Below are positions 49,327-63,655 of a stretch of 64,000 nucleotides of DNA, piece after piece. The DNA is from an uncultured Alphaproteobacteria bacterium (lineage in GTDB: Bacteria > Pseudomonadota > Alphaproteobacteria > RF32 > CAG-239). The number at the start of each line of letters is the position of its first letter. Within the stretch, counting starts at the first letter, position 1. Position numbers and translations under genes: made by a program. The notes beneath the pieces were generated by a model that was not told the DNA's origin, ran no database searches, and worked only from the letters and a program-made list of their open reading frames with translations. The DNA lies in contig CASFQO010000011.1 of NCBI GenBank assembly GCA_949297145.1, forward strand, positions 88,703 to 152,702, written 5' to 3'.

Positions 49327-52300
49327 CTAGAAATTACTTTGCATACCGACAATACCGATATAATCCGTAACTCCTTTTTCACCATCTGCATTAAACCGAG
49401 CCTGAACTTTACCCATTAAGCTCAAATCTTCTTTAGGTTCGCCTTGATAATACAAACCTAAATCATACTCTTTTGCCTCTGGTGTTAAGGATGTGGTCAG
49501 CTTATTCATATAGATTGTATCAGAATGATTATCTCGTCCGCCGGCATACATCAGTGATGCTCTTCCTTTAACAACCGAAAGCGGTGATGAAAAACTCAAA
49601 CCAACTTTATCCTTAGCATTCAGTTTATACTCTCCGGCAACCATAAAACTTTCTGTCTGCAAATCAGAAATAGCCAACATTGGCGTATCAGCTCCCTGCG
49701 TATAGCCGCGATAATATGCCGCAATTAACGAAAGATTTGGTGTCAAATTTAATGCCGCTCTAAGTCCCATATAGTAGGTAGAACTGTCTTTAATTCCAAA
49801 ACCGCCCGTACCGTTCATACCAAGCAGTGCATCATTTTCCATCAACATACCGCCCATCGTTGCCAATTCAAGATAGTCCGTCATATTAAACGAATATTCA
49901 CCCGAAAAAGCATAAGAGCGTTCCGTAAAGGAATGATTATCCTGCTCATAATCCCGTTCGTACAGACCGTTTTCACCGGTTTGCAACGCCAACTTAAATT
50001 TAGAAGTATCGCTTAACTTCATTGTGTTTTCGGCACCATAGGCTTCGTTCATCGCCAAATACGGATTATTAGACGGTGTTAAAACACTATCCGGTGTATC
50101 ATATTTGCTGTTTTGAGCATAATAAAAGCGTGTTTCTCCCGCATCGGTTTCACTCACCACTTCCATAGAAGCCAAATTTGCTTGCCCGCCGTTATTCAAA
50201 CTTTCGCTGGATGTAAAAGCAAATCCCGTCTTTTCATCTTTAACAGTCTTCTTTGCTCCTCCCATAGCCATTCTGGAAACAGCGTTACGGAAATTAGCAT
50301 TAGAAGCGTGTGTTTCATTAACTAAATTTTTCGTATCATATTCAAACGGACGATTAAGCGCATCAAACGCCGTAACGGTTTTTGGCAGCGCTTTCAAAAT
50401 TTTATTCTGCATAGAAGAAGAGAGCGATAACTTAGAAACCCCAACCGGCGTTAAAGAATCAAACGATGAAGAAGAGGCCAAACGCAATCCATCAATCGGC
50501 GTTGTGACTGCTGCTTCCAAATCAAGCGCACCTTGCCCATATTTTTGGTCATTAGCATATTCGCCTTTATCATTAGCCGTTTCAAGCAAGATATATGCCA
50601 CATTTTGCGCCGAAAGCCATGGATAATACCCCATAAGCAACGCAATACTTCCGGAAACAACCGGCGTAGCCATAGACGTTCCCGTATCCGGAAAGACGCC
50701 ATCCTGAACAGCGCCTGTTGAGATATCCATTGTCCCCGGAGCCGCCAAACAATATCCGGAAGCTGAACCGCACCAGTTAGCGTATGATGTATCCAAATAT
50801 CCTGAAGGCGCATTAGCATCTCTCGTGGAGTAATCCAAGGCTGTCACCGCCAAAAATGGCACTTCATATTTTCCAGGTCCATCGTAGCCATATAAAGACA
50901 AATCTAACCCACCAATACCAGCATATTTACCAGGTTCAGTCTGACCTTCATTTCCAGCAGCCTGAACCCAAACGCCCCTATTATTAGCAACATGAGCATA
51001 AGCCCTCATGGTATCCATATCTTGATAAAGCAATTGTTTAGCATCAGTAGCATTGTCGTCAGATGTAGATGCAGAGCCCCAACTATTGCTAAAAACTCTA
51101 ACACCGTCTTCATCAACCATTTTTTTAACTGTATCAGCCAAACCTGAACTTAAGTCCCAACTGACGGCAACAATTTCACCATTTTCAAAGGCAACACCAT
51201 GACTTCCTTCATCATTTTTATTAGCTGCAATCAACCCCGCCACATGCGTACCATGGTTTAAATCAGCAACAGCATTCCACAAAGAATATATATCATTAAT
51301 GTCTATTGCATTGGCATAATCAGACCCCGGTGTAGATCCACCGCTTCCGTTCATCACCGTAAACTGATCCAAACTCAATCCATATGCTTTCAAAGCATCG
51401 TCTAGCTCTTCATATGTATGAGAAAGAATAGTTCTATTATCTGTCGCATATTCCCGCGATATACCCCAAGCACCCTCATCTGTCATATATTGAGCACCAA
51501 CAATATAGTATTTATCTCCCTGCTGGAAAATATAAAAATGCTGTGTCGGACTAGCCATATAGCCACGAATATTTCCCATATTGTTATATGGGTTAAGGTC
51601 ATAACCACCCACAATTTTTCCATCTAAATCTTTATTGGTATAAACACCGGTATCAATAACCCCAACTTTAACTTTTTCAAGCGGATCATCTGAGTTAGCC
51701 TGATGACTTATCAGCTCACCGTTTTCACCTTGAGTATACATATAGCTATAGGCGCCAGCGGCTTTAATTCCCTCTAAATAATTACTGTTATTGTACTCTT
51801 CCGTTCTAAAAACATCTGCAGAAATAGTAGGCGCTGTACTTGGATCAGAAGGTAAATTTCCGCTATCATCTCCGCCACTGCTATCGCCACCGCCGGTATC
51901 GCCGCCACCGCTACCCTCTTCGGTACCACCACCGGTATTGCCTCCGCTTGTGTTACCATCACTGTGGCTTCCGCCGCCACCGCCGCCGCCACTAGCTAGA
52001 GCAGCCACACCTCCACCAACGGCAAGAGCACCCAGCCCCCACCATAAATAATTATTTCCCGAATCATTTTCAAAAGAAGAATTAGCGGTTCTTCGTCTTT
52101 GATTAGCCTGAGCTTCACGCCGTGCATATTGTTCTTTTTCTTCATTAATTTGTTTCACGCAAGGATGATGAGCATCAGCCCCATAATTTAACAACAATTC
52201 CTGTGCAGCCGCATCATCATAACGCATCGCGACACAATAAGCCGTATCGCCAAAGCGGTTTTGCATATTAACAGCACCGTTATAGCGAGCAAGACGCTGA

Positions 52301-52440
52301 AAAAAGCTATAATTTCCCTGTCGTGCTTGACGATAAATTTCATTTGCGGTAATGGTATAGGCCTCAACCGTATTAGAATAAAAAGCAACGCCGCCCAATA
52401 ACGAAACAGCAAACAGCAAAGATTTATTTTTAATGGCCAT
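49327..52440 (-). CDS. Secreted S8 subtilisin-like peptidase with an ankyrin-like N-terminus and a C-terminal autotransporter-type barrel
   Basis: 1037 residues from ATG at 52440 (GGAG seven bases before). A signal peptide (AIKNKSLLFAVSLLGGVAFY...EA) is followed by one ankyrin-like repeat (NRFGDTAYCVAMRYDDAAAQ...LLLNYGADAHHP, about 61-91). Then comes a hydrophobic Gly-rich segment (YLWWGLGALAVGGGVAALAS at about 131-150) and an almost pure Gly/Ser/Asp linker (151-200). The S8 catalytic domain has Asp263 in VGVIDTGV, His396 in LNHGTHVAGL, Asn497 in QAAGNEG and Ser589 in DTGTSMATP. The last 300 residues have the beta-strand pattern and terminal Phe of an autotransporter barrel. It would be displayed on the outer membrane. 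Confidence 0.85.
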   Translation of the reverse strand: MAIKNKSLLFAVSLLGGVAFYSNTVEAYTITANEIYRQARQGNYSFFQRLARYNGAVNMQNRFGDTAYCVAMRYDDAAAQELLLNYGADAHHPCVKQINEEKEQYARREAQANQRRRTANSSFENDSGNNYLWWGLGALAVGGGVAALASGGGGGGGSHSDGNTSGGNTGGGTEEGSGGGDTGGGDSSGGDDSGNLPSDPSTAPTISADVFRTEEYNNSNYLEGIKAAGAYSYMYTQGENGELISHQANSDDPLEKVKVGVIDTGVYTNKDLDGKIVGGYDLNPYNNMGNIRGYMASPTQHFYIFQQGDKYYIVGAQYMTDEGAWGISREYATDNRTILSHTYEELDDALKAYGLSLDQFTVMNGSGGSTPGSDYANAIDINDIYSLWNAVADLNHGTHVAGLIAANKNDEGSHGVAFENGEIVAVSWDLSSGLADTVKKMVDEDGVRVFSNSWGSASTSDDNATDAKQLLYQDMDTMRAYAHVANNRGVWVQAAGNEGQTEPGKYAGIGGLDLSLYGYDGPGKYEVPFLAVTALDYSTRDANAPSGYLDTSYANWCGSASGYCLAAPGTMDISTGAVQDGVFPDTGTSMATPVVSGSIALLMGYYPWLSAQNVAYILLETANDKGEYANDQKYGQGALDLEAAVTTPIDGLRLASSSSFDSLTPVGVSKLSLSSSMQNKILKALPKTVTAFDALNRPFEYDTKNLVNETHASNANFRNAVSRMAMGGAKKTVKDEKTGFAFTSSESLNNGGQANLASMEVVSETDAGETRFYYAQNSKYDTPDSVLTPSNNPYLAMNEAYGAENTMKLSDTSKFKLALQTGENGLYERDYEQDNHSFTERSYAFSGEYSFNMTDYLELATMGGMLMENDALLGMNGTGGFGIKDSSTYYMGLRAALNLTPNLSLIAAYYRGYTQGADTPMLAISDLQTESFMVAGEYKLNAKDKVGLSFSSPLSVVKGRASLMYAGGRDNHSDTIYMNKLTTSLTPEAKEYDLGLYYQGEPKEDLSLMGKVQARFNADGEKGVTDYIGIVGMQSNF

Positions 52441-52537
52441 ACAAAGTCTCCGGGCACAATATATAAATAACATGTTATACACCGACTCTACCCGAAAAAA
52501 ACTAAAAAACCTTTAATAAGAACAATTTGTACCCAAA

Positions 52538-55159: not shown

Positions 55160-55897
55160 TTATTCAGCTTTTTTAGCAGCCTTTGCCTTAGGAGCCTTTT
55201 TTGCTTTAGTCGCTTTCTTTGCTGCCTTAGCTTTAGATTCCTTTTTAGCCTTAGAGCTCTTCTTCTCTTTTTCAGCAGTTTCCTTTTTCGGACGACCACG
55301 TTTTTTCGCTACATCATCACCTTTAGAAGCTGCTCTTTTCTTAGATTTCTTTTTGCTCTTATTTTCTTTGAGTTCTGCTTGTTGTTGAGAAATTAACATA
55401 GCCTTTTCCAATTCTTTTTCAGAGCAAAGACCAACAGCCATCGGGTTAATCGGACGCAAGTTAGCCATATTACTGTGAGAGCCTTCACGAATAGAGGCAA
55501 TTGTAGGTTTAGTTGTACCAATAAGTTTACAAATTTGAGAATCAATAACTTCCGGACAGTTTTTCAAAATCCACAAAATTGCATTTGGTTTTTCAGCACG
55601 TTGAGTTGGAGAAAGAACTTTTTTAGCCTTAGCATTTCTTTCTTTAACATTTTTCTCCAACGGAGTAGCCACCAAACGAGCTTTTTCATCAGCCTCACAA
55701 CGTTGAATTTCTTCCAAAGTCAACTGACCGTTTGTAATAGGACTAACCCCCATAATATTATAAGCGATATCGCCATCAGCAATAGCCTGAATTTCCAATT
55801 CATGCAATTCACAAAAATCCGCAATTTGTTGGAAAGTCAGGGTTGTATTTTCCACCAACCAAACTGCAGTAGCCTTAGGCATTAAAGGTGCTGTCAT
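55160..55897 (-). CDS. trcR: TrcR-like cell-cycle regulator (DUF1013) with a basic tail
   Basis: 245 residues. Residues 1-160 match the alphaproteobacterial DUF1013 family: MPKATAVWLVENTTLTFQQI, ADFCELHELEIQAIADGDIA, and later PNAILWILKNCPEVIDSQIC plus LIGTTKPTIASIREGSHSN, which reads like a helix-turn-helix. A C-terminal extension (about 175-245) is Lys/Ala-rich and has an AT-hook-like RGRPKK at 200-205 and AK/KA repeats as in histone H1. Family members act as transcriptional regulators associated with RNA polymerase. The long tail is unusual, and it could help DNA binding. Confidence 0.88.
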   Translation of the reverse strand: MTAPLMPKATAVWLVENTTLTFQQIADFCELHELEIQAIADGDIAYNIMGVSPITNGQLTLEEIQRCEADEKARLVATPLEKNVKERNAKAKKVLSPTQRAEKPNAILWILKNCPEVIDSQICKLIGTTKPTIASIREGSHSNMANLRPINPMAVGLCSEKELEKAMLISQQQAELKENKSKKKSKKRAASKGDDVAKKRGRPKKETAEKEKKSSKAKKESKAKAAKKATKAKKAPKAKAAKKAE

Positions 55898-56110: not shown

Positions 56111-56344
56111 TTAATTAGCAGCTTTTTTAGCAACGAACTTAGCAAATTTGTTATTAAACTTACCAACTTGACCGCCAGAATCGACAACACGTTGAACACC
56201 TGTCCAAGCCGGATGAGACTTCGGATCAATTTCAAGAGTCATTGTTGCGCCTTCTTTGCCCCAAGTTGACTTAACTTTCTTCTCTGTACCATCTGTCATT
56301 ACATAAGTAATTTCATGATAATCAGGGTGAATACCTTTTTTCAT
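56111..56344 (-). CDS. rpmE: 50S ribosomal protein L31
   Basis: 77 residues from ATG at 56344 (GGAG six bases before; a longer frame from 56356 is unlikely). Motif [20 protein letters not shown] at the start and [20 protein letters not shown] near the end. There is no Cys motif, so it is the zinc-free form of L31. A ribosome bridging protein between subunits. Single-gene transcript with its own terminator. Confidence 0.94.
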
Positions 56345-56438
56345 TATTATCTCCAAAATTTAACTTCACTAAAAAATTTACGGTTCTTATACACTACACT
56401 TTTATAGATTGCAAGTACATTTTTGTAAATTTTTAAAC

Positions 56439-59408: not shown

Positions 59409-60215
59409 ATGGAACTGTTGAAAATATTATACTGCGGCGACATAATCGGACGAGCCGGCCGAAACGTTATCATCAAACACATTAAAGAAATAAAAGAAAA
59501 ATACGCCATAGACGGCGTCATTGTTAACGGCGAAAACGCCGCCCATGGTTTTGGCTTAACCCCATCAATTGCCAACGATTTATTAAACGCCGGTGTAGAC
59601 GGTATCACCACCGGTAACCACATCTGGCAACAACGAGAAATTTACCCTTATTTAGACCAAAACAAACAAATCATTCGCCCTTTGAATTATCCGGAAACCC
59701 TCCCTGGCAAAGGCTGGCAAATCTTAAACATCAACGGCAAAAAGTTACTGATTGCACAAGTTTTAGGGCGTTTATTTATGCCACCGATAAACAGCATTAC
59801 CGAACCTTTGGATAATTTATTAAAGCTCTACACCTTAGGCAAAAACATAGATGCGATTTTGGTGGACATACACGGCGAAGCCACTTCTGAAAAAATCGCT
59901 CTGGGCTATTATTTAGACGGACGAGTAAGTGTGGTCGCCGGCACGCACACCCATGTTCCGACCGCTGACGCGCGCATTTTACCGCAAGGCACGGGATACA
60001 TAACCGATGTCGGCATGTGCGGAGATTTTGAATCTGTTTTGGGGTTTGAACCAACCGCCCCGATGGAAAGATTAGCCGAAAAGCTAACCGTTCAAAATCG
60101 CTTAACTCCGGCCAACGGCAAAGAATTAACCTTATGGGGCGTGTTGGCAGAAATTAACAATAACGGACAGTGCGTCAATATCACCCAAGTCAAAGAGACC
60201 TTTGTCAACGACTAG
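59409..60215 (+). CDS. YmdB-family metallophosphoesterase
   Basis: 268 residues, matching the TIGR00282/YmdB phosphoesterase: KILYCGDIIGRAGRNVIIKH, IVNGENAAHGFGLTPSIAND, ITTGNHIWQQREIYPYL, VDIHGEATSEKIALGYYLDG, and VVAGTHTHVPTADARILPQG. These give the Asp, Asn, His ligands of the two-metal site. Relatives hydrolyse cyclic nucleotides. The ATG is one base after an AAGGAT motif; TTG four codons on might be the real start. In relatives a 5-formyltetrahydrofolate cyclo-ligase gene lies between 6S RNA and this gene; it is absent here. Confidence 0.88.
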   Translation: MELLKILYCGDIIGRAGRNVIIKHIKEIKEKYAIDGVIVNGENAAHGFGLTPSIANDLLNAGVDGITTGNHIWQQREIYPYLDQNKQIIRPLNYPETLPGKGWQILNINGKKLLIAQVLGRLFMPPINSITEPLDNLLKLYTLGKNIDAILVDIHGEATSEKIALGYYLDGRVSVVAGTHTHVPTADARILPQGTGYITDVGMCGDFESVLGFEPTAPMERLAEKLTVQNRLTPANGKELTLWGVLAEINNNGQCVNITQVKETFVND

Positions 60216-60237
60216 TCACGAGCTAATATGACCAACA

Positions 60238-60272
60238 AAAAAGCATCTCACCCAAATGGTAAGATGCTTTTT
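60238..60272. terminator. Bidirectional terminator
   Basis: AAAAAGCATCT (60238-60248) pairs with AGATGCTTTTT (60262-60272) around a 13-base loop, between convergent genes. Confidence 0.85.
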
Positions 60273-60307
60273 AATCTCAATTTTCAGAAATTCAATTAGA
60301 AGCAAAA

Positions 60308-62110
60308 CTACTCTTTCAAATAGTAATAAAGGCAATCGTACGCATCACCAACCGTTTGAATCTTGCTAGCCACCTCATCCGAAATAGAAAAATTAAAAGT
60401 CTTTTCACATTCCATAACAAGTTCAACTTTATCCAAACTATCTGCTTCCAAATCATCTTTCAAGTGACTCTCTCGAGTAATCATACCCTGTTCAATGCCC
60501 AATTTATCTATTAACGTCTGATTAACCGTATCCACTATTTTGCGGATCTTTGGAGAGGAATCACTGGGATCAACTTTGTAATCGCCCCAAAGCTTTTTAA
60601 CGCCATAAACTTCTTGCTTATCTATTTTGCCAGAAATTTGCTGTTCATCACTTTTTTGCTTGAGACAATAAAGAACGGAATCATAAATATCACCCAATGT
60701 TTCCCAAAAAGAATAAACAGATTTACCAAACCTGATACTAAACATTCCTTCAATATTCCTACCAAAAGATTCTCTTTTTGACGAATTAGAGGCAAAAGCA
60801 TGTTCTACCTTCATATCACGTGAATATTGTTTCTTGTCCAAATCCCCTTTATAGTAACAAGCGAACGTCACATTTACTTTCCGAATAATTTCAGGATCAT
60901 GACATTCTTCTGTCCACGGTTTACCGGAATTTTTATGGGTTGCCGCCTTATCCGCTTTTTGAACAGTTTCATCTGCAGCCTGAGGAACTTTGGTTTCAAC
61001 TACCTGTTCTTGCTTATCCTCTTTCTGCTTAAGGTAATAAAATACGGAATCATAAATATCACCCAATGTTTTCCAGAAAGAGTAAATAGATTTACCAAGC
61101 TTTATATCAAAAAGTTCTTCAATCTCTTTACGAAACAAATCTCTGGATTGACGATTCAAACCATAAATATTCCAAGCATCCATATCTCGTGAATAATCTT
61201 CCCTGTCATCATCTTCTCCTTTTTCATAATAACGAGCGATTACCCCATTTACATTATTGATAATTTCAGGATCACGACATTCTTCCGTCCACGGTTTACC
61301 GGAATTTTTATTAGTTACCACCTTATCCGCTTTTTGAACAGTTTCATCAGCAACTTGAGATGCATTGGTTTCAGTTTCTAGTTCTTGGATATCCTCTTTC
61401 TCCTTGAGGCAATAAAGAACAGAATCATAAATATCACCCAATGTTTTCCAACGAAGATATATAGAAGCGTCTAACTTTATCCCCCAAAACCTTTCAAAAT
61501 CCTTACAAAGAAGTTCTTTTCTCAACGAATTAGGATCAAAAATATTCCATATATACATATCCCGAGAATACTGTTCCTTGTCAAAATCTTCTGCATAGTA
61601 TTGAGCAAACGTTTCATTTACTTTCCGAATAATTTCAGGATCATGACATTCTTCCGTCCATGGTCTACCTGGCTTTTTATGGGTTGCCACCTTATCCGCT
61701 TCTTGAACAGTTTCATCTGCAACTTGAGGAGCATTGGTTTCAGCTTCAGACTTTTCCTCTGAATGAATTTCCGACTTATCCGAAGATACATCTTTAGGTT
61801 TAATTTCCGTAGGATTATCTTCAAACGAAACACCAGCCTCCGCCAACAAAATCTCTAACAAATTAGATTTTGTCTGTTCTCTGAAAGTCATTCCCAAATC
61901 GTTCTGCAATTCAGTAAACATTTGTTCAGTCGCATCAATAAGCCCTTGTTTCTTTTGAGCTAGCAAAACATCGAATGCTTCTTGAGACAACCTATTAGTA
62001 AGCCTATTTTGCACATCTTCTGAAACTTGGACATCAAGATTTTGAGACAACGTCAAAAACAAGCTATCGACATGTTTTTGTACTTTTTCTTTTAATTGAG
62101 TTTTTTCCAT
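60308..62110 (-). CDS. Multi-domain protein with three degenerate carrier-like repeats and a C-terminal acyl carrier domain
   Basis: 600 residues. Residues 1-100 are a helical N-terminal region. Three tandem repeats of about 123 residues follow (124-246, 247-371, 372-494), each with ETxxPQ/SQVADETVQ, a GKPWTEECxDPEII segment, a YSRDM motif and an ending KTLGDIYDSVxYxLK. The repeat ends resemble the second half of an acyl carrier protein but lack the Ser-containing Asp-Ser-Leu. The C-terminal 80 residues (521-600) are a canonical carrier with HLKDDLEADSLDKVELVMEC, Ser558 being the likely 4'-phosphopantetheine attachment site, and the typical SISDEVASKIQTVGDAYDCL. It has no adjacent synthase or ligase genes. 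AT-rich upstream. Role unknown. Confidence 0.7.
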   Translation of the reverse strand: MEKTQLKEKVQKHVDSLFLTLSQNLDVQVSEDVQNRLTNRLSQEAFDVLLAQKKQGLIDATEQMFTELQNDLGMTFREQTKSNLLEILLAEAGVSFEDNPTEIKPKDVSSDKSEIHSEEKSEAETNAPQVADETVQEADKVATHKKPGRPWTEECHDPEIIRKVNETFAQYYAEDFDKEQYSRDMYIWNIFDPNSLRKELLCKDFERFWGIKLDASIYLRWKTLGDIYDSVLYCLKEKEDIQELETETNASQVADETVQKADKVVTNKNSGKPWTEECRDPEIINNVNGVIARYYEKGEDDDREDYSRDMDAWNIYGLNRQSRDLFRKEIEELFDIKLGKSIYSFWKTLGDIYDSVFYYLKQKEDKQEQVVETKVPQAADETVQKADKAATHKNSGKPWTEECHDPEIIRKVNVTFACYYKGDLDKKQYSRDMKVEHAFASNSSKRESFGRNIEGMFSIRFGKSVYSFWETLGDIYDSVLYCLKQKSDEQQISGKIDKQEVYGVKKLWGDYKVDPSDSSPKIRKIVDTVNQTLIDKLGIEQGMITRESHLKDDLEADSLDKVELVMECEKTFNFSISDEVASKIQTVGDAYDCLYYYLKE

Positions 62111-62229
62111 AAATAATATTGTTTAAAATGATACATTGATAGAATAATAAATTTTCTGACAAAAAAATAGCATTTACCAGAAATATGTCAAGAAAAAACT
62201 CCGACACGTCAAAAAACATTTTTCATACT

Positions 62230-62256
62230 AAAAACAGCCCGCATCAAGCGAGCTGT
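62230..62256 (-). terminator. Terminator behind the small membrane protein gene
   Basis: Reading leftward ACAGCTCGC pairs with GCGGGCTGT (one G-U) and is followed by T4. Confidence 0.75.
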
Positions 62257-62278
62257 CTATCAAGATAAACCCCGCACC

Positions 62279-62719
62279 TTATCGGCCAATAGGTTCGCAG
62301 GCCATCAACAAATCTTCTTTTTTGTAAAATACTTTATACGCTGCATACAAAAGAGAGATAACAATAGCTGCCATATAAACATCATACAAAGGCATATAGT
62401 TATTCAAAAACACTGTAACACTATCCGAGCCGGAAACCATATAGTCCACACCGGCAGAAAACAGCGCATACAAAACCGTAAAATAAGGTATCCACCCAAT
62501 GGACGCCATAAACACAGACATCCGCGGAAACCGGTCATTCATCTGAAAGACAAATCTCGGAACCCAATTAAAAGCAATAGCAAGCACGGCCAACCAAAAA
62601 ACAATATACAAAAATCCGTTAATGGCGTATGCAATTTCAGACGTAAACAAAGATATTATCAGCGCTATAATTTGGTACATACCGCCAAACAGTAACAACT
62701 CATCTTTACACAACTTCAT
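62279..62719 (-). CDS. Membrane protein of unknown function, 146 residues
   Basis: ATG at 62719 chosen because GAGGAG lies four to six bases upstream; a longer frame reaches 62815. Four hydrophobic segments at about 8-28, 32-52, 70-90 and 110-132. The C-terminus is basic and short. A GWIPYFTVLYALFSAGVDYM loop is the only distinctive sequence. No family recognised. Confidence 0.6.
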   Translation of the reverse strand: MKLCKDELLLFGGMYQIIALIISLFTSEIAYAINGFLYIVFWLAVLAIAFNWVPRFVFQMNDRFPRMSVFMASIGWIPYFTVLYALFSAGVDYMVSGSDSVTVFLNNYMPLYDVYMAAIVISLLYAAYKVFYKKEDLLMACEPIGR

Positions 62720-62926: not shown

Positions 62927-63655
62927 ATGAGGAAATCTAAACTCACTCAGAAAACGTTTACTTTACCTAATGCCTATGAAATAATCCAAAATTACATTGC
63001 AAAAGGTCAAAGACTTCCGGAATGGGCACAAGTAAAAATCTTTGAACTACCGCAAATCAAAGAAATTCTAACCTCCTATTTAGCACAAAAACAAGAACTC
63101 TGCAAAGAAGCTCAACTTAAAATATTGGAGCAATCAAATGCTTCGGAAATTTTTCTTCTCTACGCTCAAAGCGGAAACTTTCTTGAAGAAGATGTGTTAA
63201 TAAAAATTACAGACTTACCCAATGCCGAAAAAATTCTGTTGGAATACGTCAGAAGCAAAAACTTCCTTACCAGAAAGTGTCAAGCCTTGGTAATTGATAA
63301 AATACCGAATGCTGAAGAAATTCTTCTTGAATTAGTAAATAACCGCTGGTGCGTTTTCAAAGAAAATCAAATCAAAATTTTTGATTTTCCGCAAGTGGAA
63401 AAGATTTTACTAAAACACACTCAAAATGGATGGCGCCTCTGTCACGAAGCCCAGATAAAACTCTGTGATTATCCTTTTGCTCCTCCCATTTTATTGGAAC
63501 ACATCAATCATAATTTTGAATTATGTTACAAAGCTCAAATAAAAATTATGGAGCAACCTTATGCCAAAAGCGTTATGAAAGCATACATTGAACATAACGG
63601 AGAACTTTATGATGACATCGCAAAAAAAATTCATCAACTTGGTTGGATAAAGTAA
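62927..63655 (+). CDS. Protein made of eight tandem ~28-residue helical repeats
   Basis: 242 residues. After a short basic start, the protein is built of eight consecutive repeats of 27-29 residues with the consensus (L/F)-P-x-A-x-x-I-L-L-x-(Y/H)-x-x-x-x-x-x-L-x-x-x-A-Q-I-K-I-x-(D/E). Examples are LPNAEKILLEYVRSKNFL and YPFAPPILLEHINHNFEL. Two helices per repeat, so an alpha-solenoid is likely, typical of protein-protein binding. The ATG lacks a clear ribosome binding site. A terminator follows. No family named. Confidence 0.65.
   Translation: MRKSKLTQKTFTLPNAYEIIQNYIAKGQRLPEWAQVKIFELPQIKEILTSYLAQKQELCKEAQLKILEQSNASEIFLLYAQSGNFLEEDVLIKITDLPNAEKILLEYVRSKNFLTRKCQALVIDKIPNAEEILLELVNNRWCVFKENQIKIFDFPQVEKILLKHTQNGWRLCHEAQIKLCDYPFAPPILLEHINHNFELCYKAQIKIMEQPYAKSVMKAYIEHNGELYDDIAKKIHQLGWIK

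Follow-up and report, generated by a model that had tools for sequence, protein, structure and literature searches.

What is a stand-alone protein that holds one acyl carrier domain behind three carrier-like repeats, where did its repeats come from, and what might they do? The question was raised by a 64,000-nucleotide stretch of DNA (referred to as the window) from an uncultured alphaproteobacterium of the lineage RF32; CAG-239 (contig CASFQO010000011.1, positions 88,703 to 152,702), which encodes such a protein of 600 residues, here called the carrier gene product. Carrier proteins are highly conserved and the Ser to which the prosthetic group is attached is normally taken as their defining feature. 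The repeats of the carrier gene are duplicated, diverged carrier domains that stand beside one carrier with an intact attachment site.

Carrier origin of the repeats

The minus strand was open across 60308-62110, the plus strand read from 60308 contained many stops, and the carrier gene is a genuine gene (Table 1). The repeats began at residues 149, 272 and 397, giving spacings of 123 and 125 residues (369 and 375 nucleotides at the DNA level), in agreement with the tandem units of about 123 residues described in a first-pass annotation of the window. The C-terminal acyl carrier domain with Asp-Ser-Leu at Ser558, also described there, was borne out. The domain matched the Pfam PP-binding family (PF00550) at residues 529-593 with 34.2 bits against a cut-off of 20.8 and NCBIfam NF002148 at residues 524-594 with 79.9 bits against a cut-off of 71, and the alignment placed D557-S558-L559 at the start of helix 2. 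The other 11 acyl carrier protein (ACP) models listed scored below their own cut-offs for this domain. The Asp-Ser-Leu motif was kept in all eight terminal carriers in the alignment of relatives, and phage carrier families of PHROGs matched the terminal carrier with a best E of 1.8e-16.

Several comparisons tied the repeats to this domain. In a six-frame search of the genome, a profile built from repeats only retrieved the terminal carrier of the same protein (E 2.6e-5), and against 177,635 PDB sequences it gave only two matches below E 0.4, both to the acyl carrier AntF (E 1e-4 and 2.8e-4); the targets of both searches were uncut. The eight terminal carriers all matched a repeat profile at 26.0-38.3 bits, compared with 9.0 for the best of 1008 shuffles, the profiles in this test being built on repeat and carrier alignments whose two ends had been trimmed by motif patterns, so that similarity is favoured there. 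An AlphaFold model predicted from the repeats alone had the four-helix carrier fold when compared with solved structures; structure prediction had been named beforehand as a check that could refute the carrier origin, and the refuting outcome did not appear. Single-carrier relatives in sister genera combine the arm of the repeats with an intact Asp-Ser-Leu/Ile site. The hhalign match spanned the whole carrier, and the earlier description of the repeats as resembling just its second half was not upheld.

The triplets at the attachment position were read from a multiple alignment, and hhalign gave the same register for a type-1 repeat. They held by type, in 2 of 2 type-1, 5 of 5 type-2 and 3 of 3 type-3 repeats, and two repeats of genome G012 deviated, one with a Ser beside a gap and the other with Ser-Lys-Ser, placing Lys at the site. 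None of the 12 repeats contained the Asp-Ser-Leu/Ile motif and none kept the Asp; the Ser was clear in five and stood beside the gap in one more. The first-pass claim that the repeats lack the Ser is thus correct for repeat 2 (Asn-Arg-Gln) and wrong for repeats 1 (Asn-Ser-Leu) and 3 (Asn-Ser-Ser). Its broader proposal, that carriers were duplicated and diverged behind one intact carrier, is supported by the profiles, the fold, the intermediates and the shuffles, apart from the term non-modified, since two repeats keep the Ser.

The divergence of the repeats is considerable. Their identity was 11-19% to AcpP, 22-30% to the terminal carrier and 33-39% to the single carrier of G077. Direct hhalign of the repeats against canonical AcpP alone gave nothing (probability 0.7%), the PP-binding model passed its cut-off on no repeat, residues 529-593 being its sole stretch in the protein, and Foldseek with the repeat model gave no row at E 0.001. 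Because of the low identity, the failed hhalign to AcpP and the lack of a Pfam match, the repeats are divergent carriers and not members of the family by the curated model. Residues of the arm and of helix 4 were invariant in eight repeats aligned from four genomes. The N-terminal domain gave no convincing PDB sequence match (best E 0.028) and no Pfam stretch.

Two further observations concern carrier-like sequences. Two PHROGs of unknown function weakly matched the Pro-Trp arm of repeat 1 (residues 149-184, about 61559-61666 on the minus strand; phrog_35913, E 1.3e-4, and phrog_30537, E 6.5e-4), no single stretch passing. Two g6 genomes (G040 and G059) contained, near acpP, an 85-residue carrier and ACP-like genes of 90-123 residues without the Ser (L083:3133-4295, L084:5313-5979); these Ser-less candidates scored 6.4-12.3 bits, a range on both sides of the 10.5 reached by the best of 1500 shuffles.

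Table 1. Features of the carrier gene and of the slot in which it lies, in window coordinates
Feature	Position	Strand	Basis or remark
YmdB-like gene (TIGR00282 metallophosphoesterase), convergent, one border of the slot	59409..60215	+	
Carrier gene, 600 residues: N-terminal domain, linker, three degenerate carriers with linkers, terminal carrier	60308..62110	-	open frame, relatives
Terminal carrier with its arm, residues 505-600, Asp-Ser-Leu intact	60311..60598	-	Pfam and NCBIfam matches
Codon of Ser558, predicted phosphopantetheine attachment residue	60437..60439	-	alignment
Degenerate carrier 3, residues 397-485, Asn-Ser-Ser at attachment position (Ser443)	60656..60922	-	
Degenerate carrier 2, residues 272-362, Asn-Arg-Gln at attachment position (Arg320)	61025..61297	-	
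Degenerate carrier 1, residues 149-237, Asn-Ser-Leu at attachment position (Ser195)	61400..61666	-	
N-terminal domain, residues 1-104	61799..62110	-	four helices in low-confidence model; common to sister-genus relatives
Promoter-like site, TTGACA-16-TATTTT, TG before second hexamer	62164..62191	-	consensus match only; 7 sites in region, 10.1 expected by shuffling
Terminator-like hairpin between upstream gene and carrier gene	62237..62249	-	consensus match only; 1 found, 1.3 expected by shuffling
Membrane-protein-like gene (by eye; 146 residues from ATG), other border of the slot, present also without the carrier gene	62279..62719	-	

Distribution and genomic slot

The window genome (1.41 Mb in 16 contigs, 87% complete) encodes a separate canonical AcpP, which is nearly invariant within the genus, and a gene of the AcpS family. 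A Pfam PP-binding search of this genome matched two places only, AcpP and the terminal carrier. A second carrier as such is not unusual, because extra carriers are common in the family, where 145 of 153 genomes gave 1 to 7 PP-binding matches each. The 600-residue gene was not the housekeeping carrier: another gene is AcpP, and the carrier gene or a piece of it was found in 8 of the 19 genomes of the genus. The window genome and G017 had three repeats, G011 had two, G016 and G018 had a single one, and G012, where the gene is cut by the contig start, had at least two. G014 retained the end of one repeat and G015 the terminal carrier alone, at a contig end. The search for orthologs and their repeat number that had been suggested as a check therefore showed a number that varies, with 1 to 3 repeats seen.

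In the tree the 12 repeats clustered together (support 0.98), with the single carrier of G077 next to them (0.92), the eight terminal carriers stood apart (0.95), and repeats of the same type from different species fell together (0.93-0.999). Because of this last grouping, the repeat types seem to be older than the species, and copies would have been lost or gained since. The node that would order single carriers, repeats and terminal carriers was weak (support 0.19).

Of 154 genomes sampled from the order, 13 contained the N-terminal domain; they belong to 5 of 17 genera and to a single family, from which nearly all of the sample comes. In a class-wide sample it was found in 1 of 385 genomes, the window genome itself; five genomes of the family were among the rows listed of that sample, and 364 rows were unlisted. 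In other genera of the family the loci of G077, G026, G024, G025, G023 and G086 lay directly before rpsJ (named by eye). This place in the sister genera holds one or two different carrier genes, several with the same N-terminal domain (L078:5446-7386, L079:6512-7451, L080:5860-6827, L081:6894-7343). An origin of the carrier gene from the place before rpsJ was considered and rejected: no carrier-like gene was seen by eye in the eight g1 loci read, of 10 fetched (rpsJ being present in 18 of the 19 genomes).

Within the genus the carrier gene occupies a slot (window 60215-62279; slot loci L110, L112, L113, L114, L115 and L119). The TIGR00282 gene lies beside the carrier gene, with a 480-residue gene between them in G012, and the membrane-protein-like gene follows where the contig reaches. 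The two borders were directly adjacent, with the slot empty, in G010 and G001. Elsewhere the slot contained a HAD-like protein of 219 residues (by eye; G008), a protein of 178 residues (G004), an HRDC protein of 365 residues with a transglutaminase-like match below cut-off (G007) or a transglutaminase-like protein of 284 residues (G009). The membrane-protein-like gene was inverted in G004 and G009 and did not adjoin the phosphoesterase gene in G002, G003 and G006; the phosphoesterase search gave no match in G005 and G013. The slot was read as a variable accessory slot in the genus. A separate transcript for the carrier gene is only suggested, because the promoter-like and terminator-like sites lie within chance expectation.

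The upstream membrane-protein-like gene was rejected as a partner because in G001 and G010, which lack the carrier gene, it still stands beside the YmdB-like gene. In line with the earlier remark that no synthase, ligase or transferase partner lies nearby, no ligase, ketosynthase or acyltransferase family was found over cut-off in the 14 genes scanned (49.3-63.7 kb, carrier gene included; small open reading frames, 56111-56356 for instance, and all remaining parts of the window lay outside the scan). Among the neighbours, a 242-residue protein (window 62927-63652) contained repeats of about 30 residues (by eye) and no Pfam family, and its relatives in G012, G016, G017 and G018 were longer (495-499 residues) and at another place. 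A second neighbour (window 55160-55897) had a long tail rich in lysine and alanine, the length differing among relatives (220-268 residues), and a third (window 49327-52482) was a 1051-residue subtilisin-like protease with an autotransporter-like layout, its family matches being weak and below cut-offs.

Rates of change and competing explanations

The ratio of non-synonymous to synonymous substitution rates (dN/dS) was calculated by the Nei-Gojobori method, with few synonymous differences behind the values. Five genomes were compared for the repeats and, G011 excepted, for the N-terminal domain. For the terminal carrier seven of the eight genomes were used (G012 left out), giving 21 pairs that are not independent. 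The N-terminal domain gave dN/dS of 0.10-0.12 in three of six pairs, the other three having one or two non-synonymous and no synonymous differences. The single type-1 repeat pair gave 0.14, and the other repeat pairs 0.4-1 except for one of 2.3 that rests on two synonymous differences. Values for the terminal carrier were 0.26-1.2, compared with at most about 0.16 for the flanking genes (seven and a prolyl-aminopeptidase-like gene), the only exception being an EF-P pair that has just one synonymous difference. The non-synonymous excess of the carrier over the YmdB-like gene had p<0.05 in 20 of 21 pairs and 0.11 in one; in the six G015 pairs the YmdB-like gene was saturated or nearly so. By region, the corresponding ratio of proportions (pN/pS) in the carrier was highest, at 0.96, in helices 2-3, compared with 0.66 in loop 1, 0.49 in helix 4 and 0.34 in the arm and helix 1. 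AcpP showed no protein change among the three genomes compared. The protein sequence of the live carrier changes faster than those of the compared neighbours, most around helices 2-3, and the N-terminal domain changes little.

The explanation to which we give about an even chance is that the protein is an accessory acyl carrier outside core fatty acid synthesis, whose worn copies serve as binding or spacing beads. The ancestor would have consisted of the N-terminal domain, a linker and one carrier, which was then duplicated repeatedly. The last carrier would have kept Asp-Ser-Leu, and the AcpS-type transferase of the genome most likely attaches phosphopantetheine to it. The upstream copies would have retained the fold, the Pro-Trp arm and helix 4 while losing Asp-Ser-Leu and part of the acidity of helix 2, and may act as non-loaded beads next to the live carrier. 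Its partner probably lies outside core fatty acid synthesis and is a specific, lineage-variable protein met through helices 2-3. There are precedents: one inactive carrier added to a subunit of a polyunsaturated fatty acid (PUFA) synthase raised the yield over that of the shorter array (PMC5067506), and a carrier without the Ser is essential in Plasmodium (PMC8547962).

Several points weigh against this explanation. Relaxed constraint can produce part of the whole rate pattern. The G014 remnant is open only in the terminal carrier and the end of a repeat, and the N-terminal part in G011 (L034) is broken in frame, assembly errors being possible; because of these two cases (the remnant being locus L036) the gene looks dispensable in some lineages. 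The Ser is kept in repeats 1 and 3, the ranges of helix-2 charge in repeats and in terminal carriers meet at -2, and the full-length AlphaFold model was poor, with a predicted local distance difference test score (pLDDT) of 45.8, and usable for the terminal carrier only. From the literature, the PUFA enzyme with the inactive carrier gave only about 30% of the yield of its all-active form (PMC5067506), and tandem PUFA carriers showed no structural synergy (PMC3585217). IacP that lacked its Ser no longer bound any of its three partners (PMC5279801), a result that tells against a binding role for unloaded beads.

A gene that is being lost under relaxed constraint, with repeats that are role-less leftovers of duplication, would fit the remnant, the broken frame, the variable repeat number and the dN/dS of about 0.4-1 in most repeat and carrier comparisons. 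This reading is nevertheless unlikely in view of the low ratios of the N-terminal domain, in the three pairs where these are defined, and of the type-1 repeat pair, the invariant arm and helix-4 residues and the Asp-Ser-Leu of every terminal carrier.

Because repeats 1 and 3 keep the Ser, loading of the repeats has also to be weighed: some or all of them might still be loaded, making the protein a tandem live array that raises flux as in PUFA synthases. In the repeat-1 model the Ser opens helix 2, and every type-1 and type-3 repeat has it in the aligned column. Helix 2 is the face bound by AcpS, and its net charge was -5 in AcpP, -2 to -4 in the terminal carriers and -2 to +1 in the repeats, which are on the whole less acidic. 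This lower acidity, the absence of the Asp from all repeats, the Arg of the five type-2 repeats, the Lys in one G012 repeat and the lack of any PP-binding stretch in the repeats make a live array improbable.

Similarly improbable is a fast-evolving, exchanged gene in conflict with a phage, a rival or a host, in which the carrier would be the variable part behind a conserved N-terminal domain. The pN/pS of helices 2-3 would agree with this, as would the varied company of the N-terminal domain, which occurs alone and elsewhere than rpsJ in G087, joined to different carriers in G023, G025 and G086, and, weakly (E 1.5e-4), before non-carrier sequence in G100. The carrier of G015 differs from the others by a synonymous rate (dS) of 0.09-0.17, despite a YmdB-like dS of 1.9 to saturated, and this hints at an exchange. 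However, the low carrier dS alone is no proof, because the dS of AcpP between G000 and G015 was also only 0.15, and the position of the G015 piece at a contig end weakens the signal. The flanking genes were themselves uneven in dS (between G000 and G018, 0.16 for the YmdB-like, 1.03 for a SuhB-like and 2.6 for the prolyl-aminopeptidase-like gene), so that any exchange would be regional. No relative was found in phages (residues 1-507 searched), viral contigs (search for close relatives only) or plasmids (residues 149-485 searched), and no toxin or immunity family was found.

A chance likeness of generic helical repeats to carriers, to which the low identity to AcpP, the failed hhalign against AcpP alone and the lack of a Foldseek row at E 0.001 could point, is highly improbable given the predicted fold, the profile searches, the shuffle control and the intermediates.

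Relation to known carriers and significance

The terminal domain shares its length, its Asp-Ser-Leu site and both passed cut-offs with bacterial AcpP (PF00550; NF002148), but it sits in a 600-residue protein together with degenerate copies, an N-terminal domain and an arm, in a genome with a separate AcpP. The tandem carriers of PUFA synthases (PfaA) are likewise several carrier domains arranged as linker-joined beads (PMC3585217). Here, in contrast, no synthase domain was matched in the 600 residues (Pfam, NCBIfam), one motif only is intact and each bead bears a Pro-Trp arm. The phosphopantetheine-free mitochondrial ACP of Plasmodium is also a carrier homologue kept after loss of its attachment site, but it is a single domain in a eukaryote organelle with the known partner Isd11-Nfs1, whereas the present carriers are bacterial, in tandem and beside a live carrier (PMC8547962). 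IacP, a dedicated carrier outside fatty acid synthesis, is similarly additional to the housekeeping carrier, but has 82 residues, is encoded with its partner genes and has no degenerate copies (PMC5279801). Among the open-access matches listed, PMC8547962 alone treats a Ser-less ACP as a natural protein. No stand-alone protein of the same layout was found among these matches, in an open-access literature outside which most subscription journals lie, and within that coverage the first-pass remark that no family with this layout had been described holds. The parts are known already and the combination is new.

Here the motif has been lost naturally and more than once next to a live carrier, and intermediates exist in sister genera; the resulting series lends itself to asking how the carrier fold functions without its prosthetic group and what part inactive carriers play in tandem arrays. 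More tentatively, the protein may represent a class of bacterial proteins in which motif-less carriers are dedicated binding modules in tandem with one live carrier, whose partner-facing helices diversify quickly between species. If this is true, carriers would be used as adaptable interaction parts, beyond acyl shuttling.
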